Assembly (NCBI RefSeq): GCF_030758935.1
Contig: NZ_CP132333.1
Span: 1,674,992 to 1,738,991, forward strand
Source: Geothrix sp. PMB-07
GTDB taxonomy: Bacteria; Acidobacteriota; Holophagae; Holophagales; Holophagaceae
DNA length: 64,000 nt
Direction: 5' to 3'
Part shown: positions 22,823 to 33,517 of the stretch, in pieces
How positions within the stretch are numbered: the stretch's first letter is position 1
Layout: each line of letters begins with the position of its first letter
The notes under the pieces: generated by a model
Seen by the model: the letters and a program-made list of their open reading frames with translations, nothing else
What the model was told of the DNA's origin: nothing
The model's database searches: none
Position numbers and translations under genes: made by a program

Positions 22823-23944
22823 CTAACTCTCGGTGAAGACTACGCCGTGCCGCGCCAGGTCTTCCCGGATGAAGTCCCAGGCCCCGGGCTCCTGGCCCAG
22901 GAATTCCGGCGGGCTGATGCCCTTGCGTGAGTAGCCGCCCTTGGCCAGCAGCCGCACCGCCGCCGTGCAGGTGTAGCCCGTGGTGCGGGCCATGGAGGTG
23001 GTGCGCGTGGTGCGGTCGTAGCGATCCAGCAGGTTCAGTTCTTTGCGCATGCGCTGGCCGTTCTTCTCGCCTTCCACCACCACCCGCATCACCGTGAAAT
23101 CCTCGTCGCCTTCCTCCATGAACCAGAGGGGGAAGAGCAGGGCGGTGGTCAGGTCCAGGGGGCTCACCTCCACGCCTCCCACCAGGATCTTGTCCTTGCC
23201 GAAGAAGCCCGATTCCCGGAGCATGCGCATCTTCTCGATGTGGCCGGGATAGCGCAGGGTTTTTTCCTTCATGGAAGGCACCTTGGGAAAGGTCTTGATG
23301 ATGCTGCGCAGGCCATCGGTGTTGAAGGATTCCAGCGTGCCCAGGCCCTCGAAATCCAGCAGCTCTGGTTCCGATAAGGCCGGCAGGGTGACCACGCGGC
23401 CATCCTTCACGTAGCGGGCGGGACGGGTGTATTCCTCGATGACATCGATGGGACTGAACCCGGCCTTGTACTCGTAGGGCCAGGTGCGGACCACGGGCAG
23501 GCCGCCCACCAGGCACTCGAAGGAGGTGATGCGATCCCACTGCCGGGAGAGGTCGCCCAGGATGAGGTTGCCGCAACCCGGCGCCACGCCGCAGTCCACG
23601 ATGGCCGTGAGGTTCTGGCGTTTGGCAAGGGCATCCAGCTCGAAGCAGTCCTCGTCGAAGAAGGAGATGTCCACCAGGGGTTTGCCGGCCTCCAGCACGG
23701 CTCGGGCCATGGCGAAGCCCATGAAGCCGGGCACGGCGCCTACCACGAGGTCCGCGTCTGCCACGGCTTCTGCCACACCCTCTGTGCGGGAGACATCCGC
23801 CAGCCGCGTGTCCGGTCCCGTCCCCCGCAAGCGGGCCAAGGCGCTGGGGGCGCGGTCCGCCACCGTGACCCGGAAATCCTGGCTGAGATCCTTGGCCATG
23901 GCGCCGCCGACGCGACCGGCCCCGAGAACGACGACATGGAGCAT
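22823..23944 (-). CDS. Saccharopine dehydrogenase / lysine 6-dehydrogenase family protein
   Basis: A Rossmann domain opens the product (MLHVVVLGAGRVGGAMAKDL), followed by VDISFFDEDCFELDALAKR, VDCGVAPGCGNLILGDLSRQ and VGGLPVV. The stretch IIKTFPKVPSMKEKTLRYPG with HIEKMRMLRESGFF closely resembles lysine 6-dehydrogenase-like proteins. The real start is the ATG at 23944 giving 373 aa; a much longer open frame upstream is antisense-like read-through of the permease. The family oxidises or condenses lysine-type substrates with NAD(P). It lies 17 bp downstream of an amino-acid permease, so a lysine or related amino-acid uptake-and-oxidation pair is likely (inference). Confidence 0.83.
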   Translation of the reverse strand: MLHVVVLGAGRVGGAMAKDLSQDFRVTVADRAPSALARLRGTGPDTRLADVSRTEGVAEAVADADLVVGAVPGFMGFAMARAVLEAGKPLVDISFFDEDCFELDALAKRQNLTAIVDCGVAPGCGNLILGDLSRQWDRITSFECLVGGLPVVRTWPYEYKAGFSPIDVIEEYTRPARYVKDGRVVTLPALSEPELLDFEGLGTLESFNTDGLRSIIKTFPKVPSMKEKTLRYPGHIEKMRMLRESGFFGKDKILVGGVEVSPLDLTTALLFPLWFMEEGDEDFTVMRVVVEGEKNGQRMRKELNLLDRYDRTTRTTSMARTTGYTCTAAVRLLAKGGYSRKGISPPEFLGQEPGAWDFIREDLARHGVVFTES

Positions 23945-23961
23945 ATGGACTCCTTTGGGAA

Positions 23962-25377
23962 TCAGGCTTTCACGCGGGGTTTCACCGCCAGGTACACGGG
24001 CCCACCCAGCGCCACCAGCAGGAGGCCAGGCCAGGAATAACTGGGACGGTAGATGAAGAGGGCGCCGACGATGGCGGTGGCGCCCAGGAGGTAGAGGGCC
24101 GGCACCACCGGATAGCCCCAGACACGCACGGGGCGGTCCAGTTCGGGCCGCCGCCAGCGCAGGAGGAAAACACCACCCACGGTGAGGATGTAGAAGAGGA
24201 TGGTGGGCAGCATGACGAAATCCAGCAGCTGCCCGTAGGTTCCCGTGAGGGTGAGCAGGCAGGTCCAGAAGGCCTGGATCCAGAGGCCGAAGGCTGGCAC
24301 GCCATGCGTGTTGAGCTTGGCAGCGCTGGGGTAGAAGAGGCCATCCTCGGCCATGCGCTGGTAGACCCGGGCGCCGGAAAGCACCAGGCCGTTGAGGCAG
24401 CCGAACATGGACACGAGGATGCTGCCAGCCATGATCAGCCCGCCGCCGCTGCCCAGTAGCACCTGCAGGGCCAGGCTGCCCACCCGGTCCTGGGGGGCGT
24501 TGGCGATCCCGGTGGGCCCAAGCACCTTCAGGTAGACGGCATTGGCCAGGAAGTAGAGACCGCAGACCGTGGTGGTGCCGATGAGCAGCGAGTAGGGAAT
24601 CGTGCGCTGGGGTTCCTTCACTTCCCCCGCGATGAAGGTGACGGAATTCCAGGCATCCGCGGAGAACATGCTGCCCGTCTGCACCACCAGCAGCGCGGTG
24701 AGGAAGGGCAGGGCGGGCGAGCCGTCCAGGGGCAGGAAGGGCGTCTGGACCGGGGCCACCGAGGGCTTCAGCAGCAGCCCCAGCAGGATCAGCGCGGCGA
24801 GGCCGCCGATCTTGGCGACGGTGAACAGGTTCTGGATGCGGGCGCCGAGCTTCACGCCGTAGAGGTTCACGGCGCTGAGGAACAGCACCACCGCGATGCC
24901 CGAGAGGCGCGAAGGCGTCAGTCCCAGGTGGTAGGGGCCCACACTGATGGCCTGGGTGACCCGCATCAGAGGCACGTCCAGGTGGGGGCCGATCCAAGCC
25001 GTGTCGGTGATGGCGGGGAAGAAGGAACCCAGATACTTGCCGAACCCCACGGCCACGGCGGCGATGGTGCCGCACTCGATGACCACGAAGAAGGTCCAGC
25101 CGTAGAGGAACCCGGCCACGGGACCGTAGGTTTCGCGGAGGTAGGTGTACTGACCCCCGGCCTGGGGGAACATGCCCGCCAGTTCACCATAACTCAGGGC
25201 CGCGAAGAGGGTGAGGATCGCCGTGAGGCCCCAGGCCGCCAGGAGGAAGCCCCCCGTGTGGCCCGTGCGGACCATGTCCGCCGCGACGATGAAGACACCG
25301 GAGCCGATCATGGAGCCGGCGATGAGCATGGTGGCGGAGAACAGGCCGACGTGGCGGCGGTAGCCGGGTGCGCTCAT
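23962..25377 (-). CDS. APC-family amino-acid permease
   Basis: The 471-aa product has about 12 membrane segments and the APC signature at the start: HVGLFSATMLIAGSMIGSGV with the substrate-binding GSG motif, then LSYGELAGMFPQAGGQYTYL and YGPVAGFLYGWTFF. The family imports amino acids with protons or exchanges them. ATG at 25377 was chosen because the conserved part begins just after it. Downstream on the same strand is the lysine-dehydrogenase-like gene, which suggests a lysine or polyamine-type substrate. mltG diverges 47 bp away. Confidence 0.9.
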   Translation of the reverse strand: MSAPGYRRHVGLFSATMLIAGSMIGSGVFIVAADMVRTGHTGGFLLAAWGLTAILTLFAALSYGELAGMFPQAGGQYTYLRETYGPVAGFLYGWTFFVVIECGTIAAVAVGFGKYLGSFFPAITDTAWIGPHLDVPLMRVTQAISVGPYHLGLTPSRLSGIAVVLFLSAVNLYGVKLGARIQNLFTVAKIGGLAALILLGLLLKPSVAPVQTPFLPLDGSPALPFLTALLVVQTGSMFSADAWNSVTFIAGEVKEPQRTIPYSLLIGTTTVCGLYFLANAVYLKVLGPTGIANAPQDRVGSLALQVLLGSGGGLIMAGSILVSMFGCLNGLVLSGARVYQRMAEDGLFYPSAAKLNTHGVPAFGLWIQAFWTCLLTLTGTYGQLLDFVMLPTILFYILTVGGVFLLRWRRPELDRPVRVWGYPVVPALYLLGATAIVGALFIYRPSYSWPGLLLVALGGPVYLAVKPRVKA

Positions 25378-25424
25378 AGGTTCCTTGGGTAGATGGATCC
25401 ACGCTACCACGGCATCCTGGAGGC

Positions 25425-26441
25425 ATGGCACGATCCTCGACTTCCCTCCGGCTTCTTCTGGCCACCCTCGTTCTCGCGGCGATTCCCGGCTTTGGGGGCT
25501 GGTGGGCCTGGAAGGGGCAGGGCCCCCTGCAGCAGGAAGCCACGGTCCTGGTGAAGCGGGGTGCCAACATCAACCAGGTGGCGGATCAGTTGGAGCGCGA
25601 TGGTGTCATCCGATCCGCTTCCCTGTTCAAGCTCTGGGCCCGGTCCCGCAAACTGCAGCTCATCCGCGGCGAGTACACGTTCAGCCCCCGCACCAGCCTG
25701 GCCGATGTGGCCGGAAAGCTTCGCCGGGCCGAGATCCACTACACCACCGTGTCCATTCCCGAAGGGGCCCACGCCTGGTCGGTGCAGAAACGGCTGAAGG
25801 ATTTCGTTCCCGAGGAGGTGTTCTGGACGCTGTGGAAGAGCCCCAGGCTGGCCAAGTCCGCCGGCTTCGAGCAGGCGGAAACCCTGGAAGGCCTCATCGC
25901 CCCCGCCACCTACAAGCTGCACCATGCCATGGAGCCGGAGGAGGTCATGCTCATGCTGGTGGAGGCCTTTCACAGCCAGGTGCGCCCCAAGTTGGAGGGC
26001 GGCGTGCTGCCCCCCTACGAGACCCTGATCCTGGCCAGCCTGGTGGAGAAGGAGACCAAGCTGGTGGAGGAGCAGCCGCATGTGGCGGGGGTCTACAAGA
26101 AGCGCCTGGACATCGGCATGCGTCTGCAATGTGACCCCACCAGCCTCTACGCCCGCTGGCTCAGCGAAGACCTGCGTTTCACCGCGCCGACTGTGGCTGA
26201 CATCCGCCGCTCTCACCGCTTCAATACGTATACCGTGAGTGGCCTGCCCCCCACGCCCATCGCCATCCCCAGCCCCACGGCCATCCAGGCGGCCCGGGAG
26301 CCCCTCGTGGGCAAGGATCTCTACTTCGTGGCCACGGGGAAGGGCGGCCACAACTTCGCGCCCACCCTGCGGGATCACAACCGCAACGTGGGGGTGTATC
26401 GCCAGGAAATCACCCGCCAGAAACGGGCTGCCCGTGGCTAA
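25425..26441 (+). CDS. mltG: Endolytic transglycosylase MltG (YceG)
   Basis: MltG cuts nascent peptidoglycan strands. The 338-aa product has an N-terminal membrane anchor (LLLATLVLAAIPGFGGWWAW), a LysM-like part, and the YceG catalytic domain with the active Glu in LILASLVEKETKLVEEQP, then YKKRLDIGMRLQCDPTSLYA and NTYTVSGLPPTPIAIPSPTA. These are the best conserved segments of the family. The stop overlaps the start of tlyA by 8 bp. Confidence 0.94.
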   Translation: MARSSTSLRLLLATLVLAAIPGFGGWWAWKGQGPLQQEATVLVKRGANINQVADQLERDGVIRSASLFKLWARSRKLQLIRGEYTFSPRTSLADVAGKLRRAEIHYTTVSIPEGAHAWSVQKRLKDFVPEEVFWTLWKSPRLAKSAGFEQAETLEGLIAPATYKLHHAMEPEEVMLMLVEAFHSQVRPKLEGGVLPPYETLILASLVEKETKLVEEQPHVAGVYKKRLDIGMRLQCDPTSLYARWLSEDLRFTAPTVADIRRSHRFNTYTVSGLPPTPIAIPSPTAIQAAREPLVGKDLYFVATGKGGHNFAPTLRDHNRNVGVYRQEITRQKRAARG

Positions 26442-27213
26442 GCAGCGGCTCGACCTGCTTCTGGTGGAGCTTGGCCTCTGCGAGACCCGCGCCAAGGCCC
26501 AGGCCCGCATCCTCGCCGGGGATGTGCTGGTGGAGGATCGTCCCATCACCAAGGCGGGCACGGCCGTGGATGAGGCCGCCATCATCCGACTGCGGGGCGA
26601 GGCCCTGCCTTTTGTGAGCCGAGGCGGCCTGAAGCTGGCTGGGGCCCTGGATCGCTGGGGCATCGATCCCAGCGGGCTCGTCTGTTTCGATGCGGGCTCC
26701 AGCACCGGGGGCTTCACGGATTGCCTGCTGCAACGAGGCGCCGCGAAGGTTTACGCCGTGGATGTGGGCACCAACCAACTGCACTGGAAACTCCGCAGCG
26801 ATGCCCGGGTGGTGTCCATGGAGCAGGTGAACCTCCGCACCTGGGATCCGAATGTCATTCCCGAAAAATGCGCCCTGCTGGTGGCCGATCTGAGCTTCAT
26901 CTCGCTGCGGCTGGCCATTCCACCTGTGTTGCCCAGCCTGCTGCCGGGGGCGGAGGCTGTGCTGCTGGTGAAGCCTCAGTTCGAGGCGGGCCGCGAGGAT
27001 GTGGGCGCCGGGGGCATCGTGCGCGATGGCGCCGTGCACCGGCGGGTGCTGGTGGACACCTGGGCCTTCTTCGCGGAAACCCAGTTGCGGCCGCAAGCCC
27101 TGGCCCTCAGCCCCATCAAGGGCGGGGAGGGAAACGTGGAGTTCCTCCTGCGCCTGCGGTTGGGAGCGGAGGCGGGCGACCTCGGCGCGGCTTTGGCGGC
27201 CCTGGAACTCTGA
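26434..27213 (+). CDS. tlyA: TlyA family rRNA (cytidine-2'-O)-methyltransferase
   Basis: The product from the GTG at 26434 is 259 aa. An S4 RNA-binding domain (AKQRLDLLLVELGLCETRAK, then ILAGDVLVEDRPITKAG) leads an FtsJ-type methyltransferase: FVSRGGLKLAGALDRWG, VCFDAGSSTGGFTDCLLQRG (SAM loop), VYAVDVGTNQLHWKLR and LLVADLSFISLRL. The family methylates 16S and/or 23S rRNA and is sometimes called haemolysin A. The GTG lies within the mltG 3' end, so translation is coupled. Confidence 0.93.
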   Translation: MAKQRLDLLLVELGLCETRAKAQARILAGDVLVEDRPITKAGTAVDEAAIIRLRGEALPFVSRGGLKLAGALDRWGIDPSGLVCFDAGSSTGGFTDCLLQRGAAKVYAVDVGTNQLHWKLRSDARVVSMEQVNLRTWDPNVIPEKCALLVADLSFISLRLAIPPVLPSLLPGAEAVLLVKPQFEAGREDVGAGGIVRDGAVHRRVLVDTWAFFAETQLRPQALALSPIKGGEGNVEFLLRLRLGAEAGDLGAALAALEL

Positions 27214-27237: not shown

Positions 27238-28602
<1,365 letters not shown>

Positions 28603-28607
28603 GGAGA

Positions 28608-30170
28608 CTAGAGGCTGGCCCAATCGGTCTGGATCACCGGGGCCGAGCCATGCTCAGGCATGGGAGCGGCTGCTTCATCCGGTTTTTGATTGGTGGACTG
28701 CCAGCGGCTGAAAACCTCCAGGGCGTTTTGTCGACCGGGACGGGTGCCATGGCCCGTGAAGGGCAGGAGGGCGGAAGGATCTGTGGCCGTGGCGTTGACC
28801 AGCACGAGGTCTGCCCGGCTCTCGCGCTGGAAACGCTGGATGGCGGCTCGATCACGGGTGTAGAGGCTGTGCGCCAGGCTGCCTTCGGCAGCGCCCAGCC
28901 AGCCCATGGCCTGATCGAGATCGCTGCAGGTGATGAGGTTCACCGTGGGCCCCAGCACGCGATGGCGGAACAGACCCATTTCCGGGGTGACACCCTCCCA
29001 CACACAGGGCTGCATGTAGACGCCATGACCCACGTTGCCCTTCACCTGGGCGGTGCGATGGGATTCATTCCACTGTTCTCCACCGGTGAGCAGGGTGGCG
29101 CCTTCAGCCTGGCCCTTCTCCCAATGCTCCCGGAAAGTGGTGGCTGTGCGGGCATTCAGGATGGGGCCGTAGGCCACATCGGGATCGCTGAGGGGATTGC
29201 CTACTTCCAGGCTGGCCACCTTGGCCAGGAAGGCTTTCTTGAAGGCCTCGGCGCAGTCTTGATGAAGGAGGATGTTGCCGAGGGCGACCTGTCCCTGGCC
29301 CGCCTGGCTGAAGGCGGCGAGGGCAGCGTCGGCCGCGGCCTGCTTGAGGTTCGCATCGGGCAGGATGACCATGAAACCTTTTCCCACCACTTCCAGGTTT
29401 GGCTGGATCAGGTTCCGGCCGCAGATCTCGCCCACATGGCGGCCCAGGTCGGCGGAGCCCACGAAGCTGAAGGACTGGAACAGGCCCTTGTCGATGCCGG
29501 CCAGAAAATGCTTGCCACAGCCAGCCCGGCCTCGACCGTTCACGGTGTTCACGACACCGTGGGGCAGGCCCGCCTCCATCATGGCGCGCAGCAACAGGTA
29601 GGCGGCCGTGGGGGCGTTGTCGCTGGGTTTCCACACCACCGTGTTGCCGCTGAGGATGGCCGGGAGGATCTTGCGGGCTGGAGCGGCCAGAGGCGAGCAG
29701 CCTGTGGCGAGAATGGCGCAGACGCCGAGGGGCCGACGGCGGGAACCCTTGGTCCTGGGGCGCTTCAGGATGGCTTCGGTTTCAGCGGCGAAGAAGGTGC
29801 AGGCCTCGATGGCTTGCCGGACTTCGCTTTCGGCCTCGCGGGGGGTCATGCCGATTTCCCGGATGATGATGCGTGCCAGCTTGTCCAGGTGGGCGGTCAG
29901 GATGGCCGCCGTCTGGCGGGCCACAGACTGGCGCTGAGCCAGGGGTGTATGAGACCAGGCGCCGAAGGCATCGGCTGCGGCCTTCGCGGCCCGAGCCACA
30001 TCCTTTTCGCCGCTGTCGGGGAACATGCCCACCAGATCGCGGCTGTCCACCGCCGACTTGGATTGGATGAGGGACAGGTCCCCCTCTACCTCTTTGCCGT
30101 TGATGACGTTGAACCCGATGACGCTTTTTCCCGCCGAGGCGGCATGGGGCGAGTTGGCTTTCAGATACAT
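28608..30170 (-). CDS. Aldehyde dehydrogenase family protein lacking catalytic Cys and Asn (pseudoenzyme)
   Basis: The full ALDH fold is present: GKSVIGFNVINGKEVEG at the start, the NAD pocket WKPSDNAPTAAYLLL, SFVGSADLGRHVG, and Glu of LEVVGKGFMVILPD. But the motif normally written NxGQxC reads QAGQGQVALGN, so the nucleophilic Cys is Gln (codon CAG at 29289-29291), and the PWNxP motif reads ATGCSPL, so the oxyanion-hole Asn is also changed. Closest in flavour to 2,5-dioxovalerate dehydrogenases. The start is set at the ATG at 30170, with CGGAG eight bases before; ATGs at 30218 and 30251 lack a Shine-Dalgarno. It ends 5 bp before a sensor kinase. Dehydrogenase activity is unlikely; NAD or ligand binding may remain. 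Confidence 0.85.
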   Translation of the reverse strand: MYLKANSPHAASAGKSVIGFNVINGKEVEGDLSLIQSKSAVDSRDLVGMFPDSGEKDVARAAKAAADAFGAWSHTPLAQRQSVARQTAAILTAHLDKLARIIIREIGMTPREAESEVRQAIEACTFFAAETEAILKRPRTKGSRRRPLGVCAILATGCSPLAAPARKILPAILSGNTVVWKPSDNAPTAAYLLLRAMMEAGLPHGVVNTVNGRGRAGCGKHFLAGIDKGLFQSFSFVGSADLGRHVGEICGRNLIQPNLEVVGKGFMVILPDANLKQAAADAALAAFSQAGQGQVALGNILLHQDCAEAFKKAFLAKVASLEVGNPLSDPDVAYGPILNARTATTFREHWEKGQAEGATLLTGGEQWNESHRTAQVKGNVGHGVYMQPCVWEGVTPEMGLFRHRVLGPTVNLITCSDLDQAMGWLGAAEGSLAHSLYTRDRAAIQRFQRESRADLVLVNATATDPSALLPFTGHGTRPGRQNALEVFSRWQSTNQKPDEAAAPMPEHGSAPVIQTDWASL

Positions 30171-30295
30171 GCCGGGCTCCGGAGCGGATGGATCCAGGAT
30201 AACCACAGCAAGTGCCATTCCTGCATCTGTTCCCGCAGGGACGGTTTCCATGGGCGCGCTTTCAGCCTGTACACTGGGGGATTGCCGGAGTCCAG

Positions 30296-31045
30296 GTGTT
30301 CGACAACCTCTCCATTCCCACCATCCTCGTGAGCTACGTGGCCCTGCTGTTCAGCCTCAGCGTCCACGAGGCCAGCCATGCCACGGCGGCCTACTGGCTG
30401 AAGGATGACACCGCTGCGCGGCTGGGGCGCATGACCCTGAATCCGCTGGCCCATATGGATCCGCTTGGGACCTTCGTGTTCCCGCTCCTCGGCATGGCCA
30501 CGGGCTTCCCCTTCATTGGTTGGGCTAAGCCGGTGCCCGTGGATCCGCGCAACCTGGACCGCCGTTTCTCCCAGCGGGGCGGCTATGCCCTGGTGGCCGC
30601 GGCTGGGCCCACCTCGAACATGATTCTGGCCCTGATCTTTCTGGGCATCCTCCTGGTGCTCGTCAGTGTGGTGGGGCTGCCCCCGGCCATGGAATTGCGG
30701 CTCTTTGGCCATGCGCTGCTGGCCCGCAAAGTCGAGAGCCTCCAGGCCCTGGAACTGGGCACAGGCATGACCCTGGCGCTGGCTCTTTGCGGGCGTCTGG
30801 TGCTCATCAACATTGGTCTGGCTCTGTTCAACCTCTTGCCCATGGGGCCCTTGGATGGAGCAGGCATCCTCCGGGGGATGCTGCCCTGGCGCTGGCTGCC
30901 GAAATTCGACCGGGTTCAGCCCTGGATGGGGGGCGTCCTCATTGTTTTGGCGCTCACGGGTCTGCTGGGCTATGTCATCGGCCCCGTCTTCGGGGTGATT
31001 CTCACTGCGATCGAATCGATCGCCCGCCTGATCCTAGGAGCTTGA
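30296..31045 (+). CDS. Site-2 protease family (M50) membrane metalloprotease
   Basis: The GTG at 30296 has GGAG at good spacing and gives a 249-aa product. The HExxH zinc motif is in LFSLSVHEASHATAAYWL inside the first helix, and the second metal site is in LLPMGPLDGAGIL (NxxPxxPxDG). Six or so membrane segments follow the compact S2P/SpoIVFB pattern, with FPFIGWAKPVPVDPRNL between them. Members cut membrane-embedded or membrane-proximal substrates. No PDZ domain is present, unlike RseP. trpS follows in 3 bp, a common genomic neighbour in some bacteria, and probably shares its transcript. Confidence 0.88.
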   Translation: MFDNLSIPTILVSYVALLFSLSVHEASHATAAYWLKDDTAARLGRMTLNPLAHMDPLGTFVFPLLGMATGFPFIGWAKPVPVDPRNLDRRFSQRGGYALVAAAGPTSNMILALIFLGILLVLVSVVGLPPAMELRLFGHALLARKVESLQALELGTGMTLALALCGRLVLINIGLALFNLLPMGPLDGAGILRGMLPWRWLPKFDRVQPWMGGVLIVLALTGLLGYVIGPVFGVILTAIESIARLILGA

Positions 31046-31048
31046 TCC

Positions 31049-32041
31049 ATGCAGCAGCGCGTTCTTTCCGGCATCCAGCCTTCGGGCTCTCAGCACATCG
31101 GCCACCTGGTGGGTGCCCTCGACAACTTCACGCGGCTGCAGGGCGAAGGCGAGGCCTTCTACATGATCGCGGATTGGCACGCCCTCACCTCGAAGTACGA
31201 ATCTGTCGAGGAGATCTGGCCCGCCACACAGGAGCTCACCGCCACCTATCTGGCGGCGGGGCTGGATCCCAACCAGGCCACGATCTTCGTGCAGAGCCTG
31301 GTGAAAGAGCACGCCGAGCTGCATCTGCTGCTCTCCATGGTGACGCCGCTCTCCTGGCTGGAGCGCGTGCCCACCTACAAGGAGAAGCTGCAGAACGCCG
31401 TGGCTGATCTGGGCAGCTACGGCTTCCTGGGCTACCCCCTGCTGCAGACCGCCGACATCATCATCTACAAGGCCGACAAGGTGCCCGTGGGCGAAGATCA
31501 GCTCTTCCATCTGGAACTGGCCCGCGAGGTGGTCCGCCGCTTCAACTTCCTGTTCAAGCGGGAAGTCTTCCCCGAGCCCGCGGCGGTGCTCACCAAGACG
31601 CCCAAGGTGCCCGGACTCGACGGACGGAAGATGTCCAAGAGCTACGGGAACTGCATCTATCTGCGCGACAGCAATGCCGACATCCTGGAGAAATGCACCC
31701 GCCAGATGGCCTCCGACCCGGCCCGTCTGCGCAAGACCGATCCCGGAAACCCAGACATCTGCCCCGTCTTCGAGTTCCACAAGCTCTTCAGTGATGCGGC
31801 CACGGTGGAATTGGTGAACACCGAATGCCGCCGCGCGGGCATCGGCTGCTTCGACTGCAAGAAGCGCGTGGCGGAAGCCATCACCCGCCGCGTGGAGCCC
31901 GTGCGCGAGAAGATCGAGGGGCACCTCGCCCGCCCCGGCGACATCGATGGGGTGCTCCGTGAGGGCAGCGCCCGCGCCCGCCAGGTGGCCGCGGAAACCA
32001 TGGCCGACGTGCGGGACGCCATGAAGATGCCGACCCTCTAA
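31049..32041 (+). CDS. trpS: Tryptophanyl-tRNA synthetase
   Basis: The class I synthetase has 330 aa, normal size. The HIGH box is GSQHIGHLVGALDNF, then FYMIADWHALTSKY, YPLLQTADIIIYKADKVPVG and the KMSKS loop GLDGRKMSKSYGN. The C-terminal half contains GCFDCKKRVAEAI. TAGGAG precedes the ATG. The gene follows the M50 protease by 3 bp and is followed by a tRNA-Lys gene with its own promoter. Confidence 0.97.
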   Translation: MQQRVLSGIQPSGSQHIGHLVGALDNFTRLQGEGEAFYMIADWHALTSKYESVEEIWPATQELTATYLAAGLDPNQATIFVQSLVKEHAELHLLLSMVTPLSWLERVPTYKEKLQNAVADLGSYGFLGYPLLQTADIIIYKADKVPVGEDQLFHLELAREVVRRFNFLFKREVFPEPAAVLTKTPKVPGLDGRKMSKSYGNCIYLRDSNADILEKCTRQMASDPARLRKTDPGNPDICPVFEFHKLFSDAATVELVNTECRRAGIGCFDCKKRVAEAITRRVEPVREKIEGHLARPGDIDGVLREGSARARQVAAETMADVRDAMKMPTL

Positions 32042-33240: not shown

Positions 33241-33322
33241 AGCATTTTTGGCGTTGGCGCCCCCCTGGGCCTTGGAGTAGTGTCCATCCGTGGGACCGTG
33301 TCCCACCCATCTGGAGATCCCC

Positions 33323-33517
33323 ATGAAGAAATTCCTGGCCCTCGCCCTCGTGAGTTCCTTCGCCCTGGTCGGCTATGCCGCCGACGAAAAGAAGCCCGAG
33401 CCCAAGAAGGCTGGCTGCGGCATGGCCTGCTGCGAGAAGAACAAGAAGTCCTGCAAGGACTGCCCCGACTGCAGCAAGAAGAAGGTCGAGAAGAAGGCCG
33501 AACCCAAGAAGGACTGA
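33323..33517 (+). CDS. Small exported Cys/Lys-rich protein
   Basis: Only 64 aa. A signal peptide (MKKFLALALVSSFALVGYAA) is followed by a chain of Lys, Glu and six Cys: CGMACC then CKDCPDC (C-x3-CC-x6-C-x2-C-x2-C). TGGAGA precedes the ATG at 33323. The pattern suggests a periplasmic metal-binding or disulfide-rich peptide. No known family comes to mind. It is a single-gene unit with its own terminator 25 bp later. Confidence 0.72.
   Translation: MKKFLALALVSSFALVGYAADEKKPEPKKAGCGMACCEKNKKSCKDCPDCSKKKVEKKAEPKKD

Follow-up and report, generated by a model that had tools for sequence, protein, structure and literature searches.

The closest solved relative of the protein considered here is ALDHTt, an aldehyde dehydrogenase (ALDH) of Thermus thermophilus, for which the structures PDB 6FK3, 6FJX, 6FKU, and 6FKV have been reported (Hayes et al. 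2018, PMC6127216). According to that report, the ADP half of NADP+ is contacted by Lys182, Thr156, Ser184, Ser240, and Arg342, with Glu185 at the 2' phosphate, and the nicotinamide half by Glu404 and Leu262. Lys182 is also named there among the catalytic residues, and Holophaga foetida appears in Table 1 of the same paper (PMC6127216). Human ALDH16A1 is described as an ALDH pseudoenzyme (PMC10650815, PMC8160307), and this mammalian protein is the one ALDH pseudoenzyme named in the portions of the literature consulted; inactive ALDH2 is cited as an allosteric regulator in a review (PMC10211241). For the kind of protein described below, we found no bacterial ALDH pseudoenzyme among the titles and abstract openings of the open-access literature searched.

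The window (the whole 64,000-nucleotide stretch of Geothrix sp. PMB-07 DNA that was analysed) contains, at 28608-30170 on the minus strand, a gene for an ALDH-fold protein of 520 amino acids, which an earlier note on this DNA had taken for a pseudoenzyme. This claim is borne out, as the places of the catalytic Cys, the oxyanion Asn, and Glu404 are changed in all 23 full-length copies of its clade (from here on, the dead copies) and the gene is under purifying selection. Our preferred reading, to which we give a probability of roughly 0.58, is that the protein is a retained, non-catalytic pseudodehydrogenase of the ALDHTt type that, judged from its residues, would bind an adenine nucleotide.

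Catalytic residues are replaced and the ADP-half contacts are kept

The ALDH reading frame is open from 28608 to 30251 (minus strand), and alignment places the conserved start at M28, at position 30170, in agreement with the earlier note. The protein matches the Pfam profile Aldedh (PF00171) with 312 bits against a cut-off of 23, over residues 71-502 and profile positions 17-439 of 461. In a sequence search, ALDHTt (PDB 6FK3) was matched with an E-value of 3.6e-99 by the window protein and of 5e-192 by the intact Geothrix rubra copy, and by sequence the window protein is of the ALDHTt type. The earlier assignment to the 2,5-dioxovalerate dehydrogenases was mistaken: the models for 2,5-dioxovalerate/alpha-ketoglutaric semialdehyde dehydrogenase (NF052305 and NF042993), despite being the top-scoring NCBIfam equivalogs, reach 237 and 238 bits, where 750 and 770, respectively, would be required. 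We also note an antisense frame of 560 amino acids (28650-30332, plus strand) that is open across the whole ALDH gene; the matched region is likewise spanned by open antisense frames in at least four orthologous loci (L021, L023, L024, and L025). Frames of this kind often occur in GC-rich genes, and annotation could be misled by them.

The nucleophile (Cys295 of ALDHTt, Cys302 of ALDH2) is replaced in the window protein by Gln321, encoded by CAG at 29289-29291 (minus strand) and aligned with the Cys of the GQRCTS motif of intact relatives, as the earlier note had read. Among the 23 dead copies, this place is occupied by Pro (15), Gln (2), Ser (2), Leu (2), Thr (1), or Ala (1), whereas Cys is found in 16 of 16 intact copies. 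The absence of Asn from the PWNxP region was likewise read correctly: the NNFP region of intact Geothrix copies corresponds to a remodelled oxyanion loop, T183-G184-C185-S186-P187 (29691-29705, minus strand), in which Cys185 stands at the place of the oxyanion Asn. Asn is present at this place in none of the 23 dead copies, which have Ser, Ala, Thr, Ile, or Cys. T183, G184, S186, and P187 of the new loop are invariant among them, and position 186 is Phe in all intact copies. The FVGS motif, listed in the earlier note as a kept element, is indeed present in the window protein, but intact copies have FTGS, so that its Val belongs to the change. The nicotinamide-ribose Glu (Glu404 of ALDHTt) gives way to R431 in the window protein (28959-28961, minus strand); the dead copies have Gln (16), Pro (4), Arg (2), or His (1) here, and the intact copies have Glu in 16 of 16. 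The general base place (Glu268/Glu261) is Glu in three dead copies, including the window's, and Asp in the other 20, and E287 is Glu or Asp in all 23.

Two segments are shortened and a third is better conserved than in intact copies. First, the oligomerisation hairpin (residues 152-173; 29733-29798, minus strand) is poorly conserved and has 17-24 residues in the dead copies compared with 29 in 16 of 16 intact copies, i.e. it is 5-12 residues shorter; identity over stretch 151-175 is 0.44 in dead and 0.87 in intact copies. Second, a deletion of about five residues lies in the PFGG/aldehyde-anchor region (residues 497-502; 28746-28763, minus strand), which has six residues in all 23 dead copies compared with 11 in 15 and 10 in one of the 16 intact copies. 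Further, the C-terminal tip TDWASL (residues 542-547; 28611-28628, minus strand) has an identity of 0.88 in dead compared with 0.63 in intact copies, and the tail preceding it has 0.21 in dead copies.

The sites that would hold the ADP half of the cofactor are, by alignment to the ALDHTt contacts (PMC6127216), K208-P-S-D211 at the adenosine ribose (Lys182, Ser184, and Glu185 of ALDHTt; 29619-29630, minus strand), G265-S266 at the pyrophosphate (Ser240; 29454-29459, minus strand), and R368, also at the pyrophosphate (Arg342; 29148-29150, minus strand). K208 (the Lys192/Lys182 equivalent) and the equivalents of S210, S266, and R368 are each invariant across all 23 dead copies, every one of which has Asp or Glu at position 211. 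The Leu262 equivalent is Leu in 19 and Val in four. The Thr156 place is Ala in all dead copies and also in 16 of 19 intact rows (three rows being counted twice), so this position is uninformative. Because the residues contacting the ADP half are invariant, cofactor binding without chemistry is plausible. The retained residues sit in a strongly conserved part of the fold, and they may have been kept for folding. Further, as Lys182 is listed as catalytic in the ALDHTt report (PMC6127216) and its equivalent is kept, not every catalytic residue has been lost.

Intact, dead, and missing copies occupy one locus in Geothrix

The locus is marked by a divergent M50 metalloprotease gene (Pfam Peptidase_M50; 30296-31045, plus strand), and by trpS (31049-32041, plus strand; matched in 41 of 47 Geothrix genomes). 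On the other side lies a convergent gene for a TlyA-like S4/FtsJ methyltransferase (26434-27213, plus strand), which adjoins the M50 gene where the ALDH gene is absent. Among the 47 Geothrix genomes, 23 have a full-length dead copy (the window's own counted in), two have a copy with Cys changed to Gly (G010 and G064), and six have an intact copy at the same locus (G001, G011, G019, G020, G027, and G065). In G034, a C-terminal fragment that does not cover the Cys lies at a contig start. The site is empty, with tlyA followed directly by the M50 gene, in 10 genomes (G006, G007, G008, G009, G015, G018, G024, G025, G035, and G060), and thus the gene is dispensable in places. No close orthologue was found in the remaining five (G005, G026, G029, G030, and G069), where the site was not seen whole. 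Dead, Cys-to-Gly, or intact copies are present in 31 genomes; in 30 of these, judged by coordinates, trpS is divergent and no more than about 1 kb away. In G020 it had no match at 1e-60, yet the same trpS and M50 families lie on its contig. The simple gene caller missed the M50 gene or trpS in a few loci (e.g. G013, G023, G036, and G063).

A second close copy was found in none of the 47 Geothrix genomes, and the paralogue search in the window's own genome returned no close one, the next best ALDH having 25-27% identity. Orthologues with an intact Cys at the same place, which the earlier note had named as evidence against its idea, do exist, in the six Geothrix genomes and in other genera. The loss of Cys, the recurrence of which in related genomes had been proposed as a check, does recur: Cys is gone in 23 of 23 full-length copies, though it is replaced by Gln in only two of them.

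Several other genes near the locus were considered. An amino-acid permease gene and a saccharopine-dehydrogenase-like gene form a tandem pair (22823-25431, minus strand) that is conserved near the locus in many Geothrix genomes, also where the ALDH gene is absent. We rejected a role in lysine or proline catabolism, since the saccharopine-dehydrogenase-like, permease, and proline dehydrogenase genes are also present in most empty-site genomes. At 33290-33517 (plus strand) lies a gene for a short protein that is rich in Cys and Lys, has an apparent signal peptide, and lacks a Pfam match; this gene adjoins proline dehydrogenase in many Geothrix loci, and its product may be an exported peptide that binds metal. 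In the intact Geothrix clade (L048 and L049), a conserved Pro/Lys-rich protein of 62 amino acids without a Pfam match is encoded downstream, together with BshC- and BshB1-like genes. A bacillithiol link was rejected, as these Bsh-like genes lie near intact copies and none was seen beside dead copies; the BshC-like match is partial and, at 81 of 266 bits, is under the NCBIfam cut-off.

The dead gene is under relaxed purifying selection

Pairwise dN/dS (NG86) is 0.14-0.27 for 11 dead pairs compared with 0.04-0.18 for six intact pairs, and 0.29 for the Cys-to-Gly pair; the neighbours give 0.03-0.21 (TrpS), 0.05-0.38 (M50), and 0.07-0.16 (TlyA). The protein branches of the dead clade are longer, and the dead gene has a higher rate of evolution than its intact relatives or most of its neighbours. 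We conclude from the ranges and branch lengths that selection is relaxed but present: the dead gene is under purifying selection. There is no internal stop in any of the 23 full-length dead copies, and the dead clade is invariant at 157 of 520 positions. When the G028-G000 pair was simulated under neutrality, 1.4% of 2000 runs remained free of stops, and mean protein identity was 27% compared with the 85% observed. Taken with this result, the absence of Cys from all 23 full-length copies is not a matter of chance.

These results bear on the possibility that we are looking at a gene in decay, in which the loss of a partner oxidoreductase (described below) made catalysis useless and the frame is now disappearing. 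Its faster evolution than that of intact copies, its absence from at least 10 Geothrix genomes, the fragment at a contig start in G034, and the poor conservation of tail, hairpin, and linker would all fit. However, a decaying frame accords poorly with the dN/dS range of the dead pairs, with the freedom of all 23 full-length copies from stops, with the neutral simulation, and with invariant positions and others re-fixed to new residues. We therefore regard decay as distinctly unlikely.

We next compared conservation along the protein; because the intact set spans several genera and the dead set one genus, only the pattern along the protein can be compared, and the segment boundaries were chosen after the alignment was viewed. 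Segment 28-100 and the tip 542-547 are better conserved in the dead than in the intact copies, their values each being reached in 12 of 520 circular shifts. The opposite holds for the hairpin (27 of 520 shifts from below) and most strongly for the tail 518-541 (6 of 520 from below), while neither segment 201-258 (53 of 520 from above) nor segment 446-517 (57 of 520 from below) stands out. Both groups are conserved at 168 positions, and at 16 of these the majority residue differs between them. Such switched positions make up 10 of 45 in the cofactor-cleft segments that we defined (176-226 and 262-292) compared with 6 of 123 elsewhere (Fisher p = 0.0017), and nine of the 16, T183 and S186 of the new loop among them, are invariant in the dead clade.

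The clustering of new residues near the cofactor cleft could also be expected if the remodelled pocket had retained some other chemistry, e.g. hydrolysis or non-covalent redox, as could a replacement loop with fixed Thr, Gly, Ser, and Pro, the kept equivalent of Lys182, and an acidic residue at position 287 throughout. Set against this are the loss of the nicotinamide-ribose Glu and the residues at the nucleophile place, which, being Pro in most dead copies and one of five others in the rest, do not look like a new catalytic residue. Another chemistry is thus, in our estimation, very unlikely.

Loss of catalysis in the wider family and a probable DAO-family partner

A family-level search of 77 genomes returned a match in 48. 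The ALDH tree groups the 23 dead copies in one clade, and likewise the dead and the two Cys-to-Gly copies together (100% support each); in the trees, all Geothrix copies form one clade and those of genus g16 a separate clade (100% each). The copies examined from genera g17, g20, g22, g23, and g215 are intact at the positions inspected. In genus g16, Arg replaces Cys in five of five copies, Asn is lost in four of five, and the Glu404 equivalent is kept in five of five. As the dead Geothrix and g16 clades are separate, catalysis was lost at least twice in the family. Four of five g16 copies have also lost the pyrophosphate Ser, so the argument from the ADP half is not transferable to g16. Pairs from g16 have dN/dS values of 0.17, 0.31, and 0.40 compared with 0.03 and 0.05 in g20, and evidence of constraint is weaker in g16. 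An M50 or trpS marker lies beside the gene in g16, g17, g20, g22, g23, and g216 and was not seen in the g215 contig.

Two individual copies are worth noting. In G437 (genus g216, L233), Cys is kept and the oxyanion Asn is Val, perhaps an early stage of the same loss. The g16 copy of G435 (L229) is on a long branch, with Arg at the Cys place and a Cys one residue earlier. Unlike the other four g16 copies, it has the deletions in the hairpin as well as in the anchor region; this may be parallel erosion or contamination, the contamination of that genome being 8%.

Outside Geothrix, the ALDH gene is accompanied by a gene for a DAO-family FAD oxidoreductase (PF01266). By coordinates, this gene is divergent from and adjacent to the ALDH gene in 16 of 17 ALDH-bearing non-Geothrix genomes, the exception being G428; the gene caller alone grouped it in 8 of 14 loci and left the ALDH gene uncalled in three. 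The DAO gene is found in 23 of 30 non-Geothrix genomes of the family, seven of them without the ALDH gene, and had no match at an E-value of 1e-30 in 46 of 47 Geothrix genomes. The sole match is in G005, the only Geothrix-labelled genome to have one; it has a partial trpS match and no close ALDH orthologue, and may be misplaced or mixed. The pair would have acted in two steps, an amine or amino acid being oxidised to an aldehyde and this in turn to an acid, and Geothrix would have lost the first (DAO) step before most of the genus lost the second (ALDH) step. DAO is also missing from the intact Geothrix clade, so losing the partner was not immediately fatal to the enzyme. Further, the dead g16 copy adjoins the DAO gene in five of five genomes (by coordinates); there catalysis was lost with DAO present, and partner loss is thus not the only route. 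Overall, DAO loss is neither a sufficient nor a necessary trigger.

With regard to the order of events, a SecA+TrpS tree rooted on another family of the class places the intact clade as sister to the other sampled Geothrix, with support (read off without re-rooting) of 86% for the non-intact group, 61% for the intact clade, and 26% for the dead copies plus G009. A further tree, in which the outgroup joins beside G031 and the intact clade comes to lie within the rest, was not used for rooting, and two others were set aside, one being unrooted and one having an outgroup branch of length 7. Because the outgroup attaches elsewhere in that further tree, we give this order of events as likely.

The neighbourhood in g16 also suggests that the sole function of a dead copy might be that of a subunit, stabilising or regulating some other ALDH or oxidoreductase that is active, which is a known mode of pseudoenzymes, with inactive ALDH2 as an example (PMC10211241, PMC10650815). 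In Geothrix, however, candidates for such a partner are lacking among close ALDH paralogues in the window's own genome and among DAO matches in all but one genome, and the hairpin through which subunits would be expected to associate is eroded. We consider a purely subunit role highly improbable for the window protein.

The adjacent PAS histidine kinase is found in a subset of species

Downstream of the ALDH gene lies the gene for a PAS sensor histidine kinase of 454 amino acids (27238-28602, minus strand). Its ATG, at 28602, is 5 bp past the ALDH stop and on the same strand, a spacing that can be read directly and that agrees with the earlier account. The product matches the PAS, HisKA, and HATPase_c profiles, as expected from that account, whereas its description as having almost no periplasmic sensor relies on two hydrophobic stretches with about 10 residues between them, judged by eye only. 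Orthologues of the kinase (664 bits and more) were found in only six of 47 Geothrix genomes (G000, G028, G061, G066, G023, and G004), in all of which the gene adjoins a dead ALDH. No kinase was found at an E-value of 1e-90 in the genomes of 17 of the 23 full-length dead copies, some of these genomes being incomplete. When the G034 fragment is counted as dead, the kinase is present in 6 of 24 genomes with a dead copy and 0 of 23 others (Fisher one-sided p = 0.013, with kinship ignored). Neither the species trees nor the ALDH tree unite the six kinase-bearing species in one clade.

It had been proposed that the dead ALDH is the soluble sensor of this kinase, binding NAD(H) or an aldehyde-like ligand and passing the signal on. 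The binding half of this proposal is plausible, given the invariant ADP-half residues. The tie to the kinase finds no support as a rule: conserved linkage, the lack of which had been regarded as telling against the idea, is confined to the six genomes, and we reject the kinase as an obligatory partner. The close spacing on one strand, the occurrence of the kinase solely beside dead copies, and its apparently minimal periplasmic loop all speak for a sensor role, and since the kinase was never found without a dead copy, a functional link in a subset is possible. The same gene is nevertheless kept in the 17 other species, where the kinase cannot explain it; the kinase-bearing species are scattered; and the kinase may be a single insertion between the ALDH gene and tlyA that was often lost. 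As an account of the protein in general, a kinase sensor seems to us improbable, and the kinase is at most a partner in a subset of species.

Discussion

Returning to the reading of the dead copies as non-catalytic, nucleotide-binding proteins, we propose the following course of events. The Geothrix lineage would have lost the DAO partner, and most of the genus also lost the nucleophile, the oxyanion Asn, and the nicotinamide Glu. The dead protein, its hairpin and anchor region shortened, was nonetheless kept by selection. It retains the C-terminal tip, the N-terminal portion of the coenzyme domain, and, within the cofactor cleft, the ADP-ribose half, and a newly fixed TGxSP loop takes the place of the oxyanion loop. 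Most probably, it would bind without catalysis an adenine nucleotide, be it NAD(P)(H), ADP-ribose, or a different ligand that carries ADP, and this would set the shape of the protein or its contact with a partner, in which case the protein would act as a binding or regulatory protein. A bolder, unlikely extension is that the Holophagaceae made an ALDH-fold sensor at least twice, and that the Geothrix version reads the adenine-dinucleotide state of the cell without any chemistry, through the ADP half and the TGxSP loop, and signals to changing partners and with the PAS histidine kinase wired in for one subset.

Within this one genus, a single locus may hold an intact copy, a Cys-to-Gly copy, or a copy that is fully dead yet under selection, or it may be empty. 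This series makes the question of what an enzyme does once its chemistry is gone testable among close orthologues, and a possible contributing cause, the loss of the FAD partner, is visible.

Compared with known systems, the window protein resembles mammalian ALDH16A1 in being an ALDH without catalytic residues that is proposed to work by binding (PMC10650815, PMC8160307). It differs from ALDH16 in that the latter, as seen in the structure of the bacterial LsALDH16, has an extra large C-terminal domain (PMC8160307), whereas the Geothrix protein has the length of a single ALDH; unlike ALDH16, it is of the ALDHTt type by sequence and has intact orthologues at the same locus in related species. 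ALDHTt itself is an active tetramer with Cys295, Glu261, and Glu404 (PMC6127216). Intact Holophagaceae copies share with it a long C-terminal extension, whereas the window protein lacks the equivalents of Cys295 and Glu404, has a shortened hairpin, and is without the LQLAQ part (the tail crook) of the tail.
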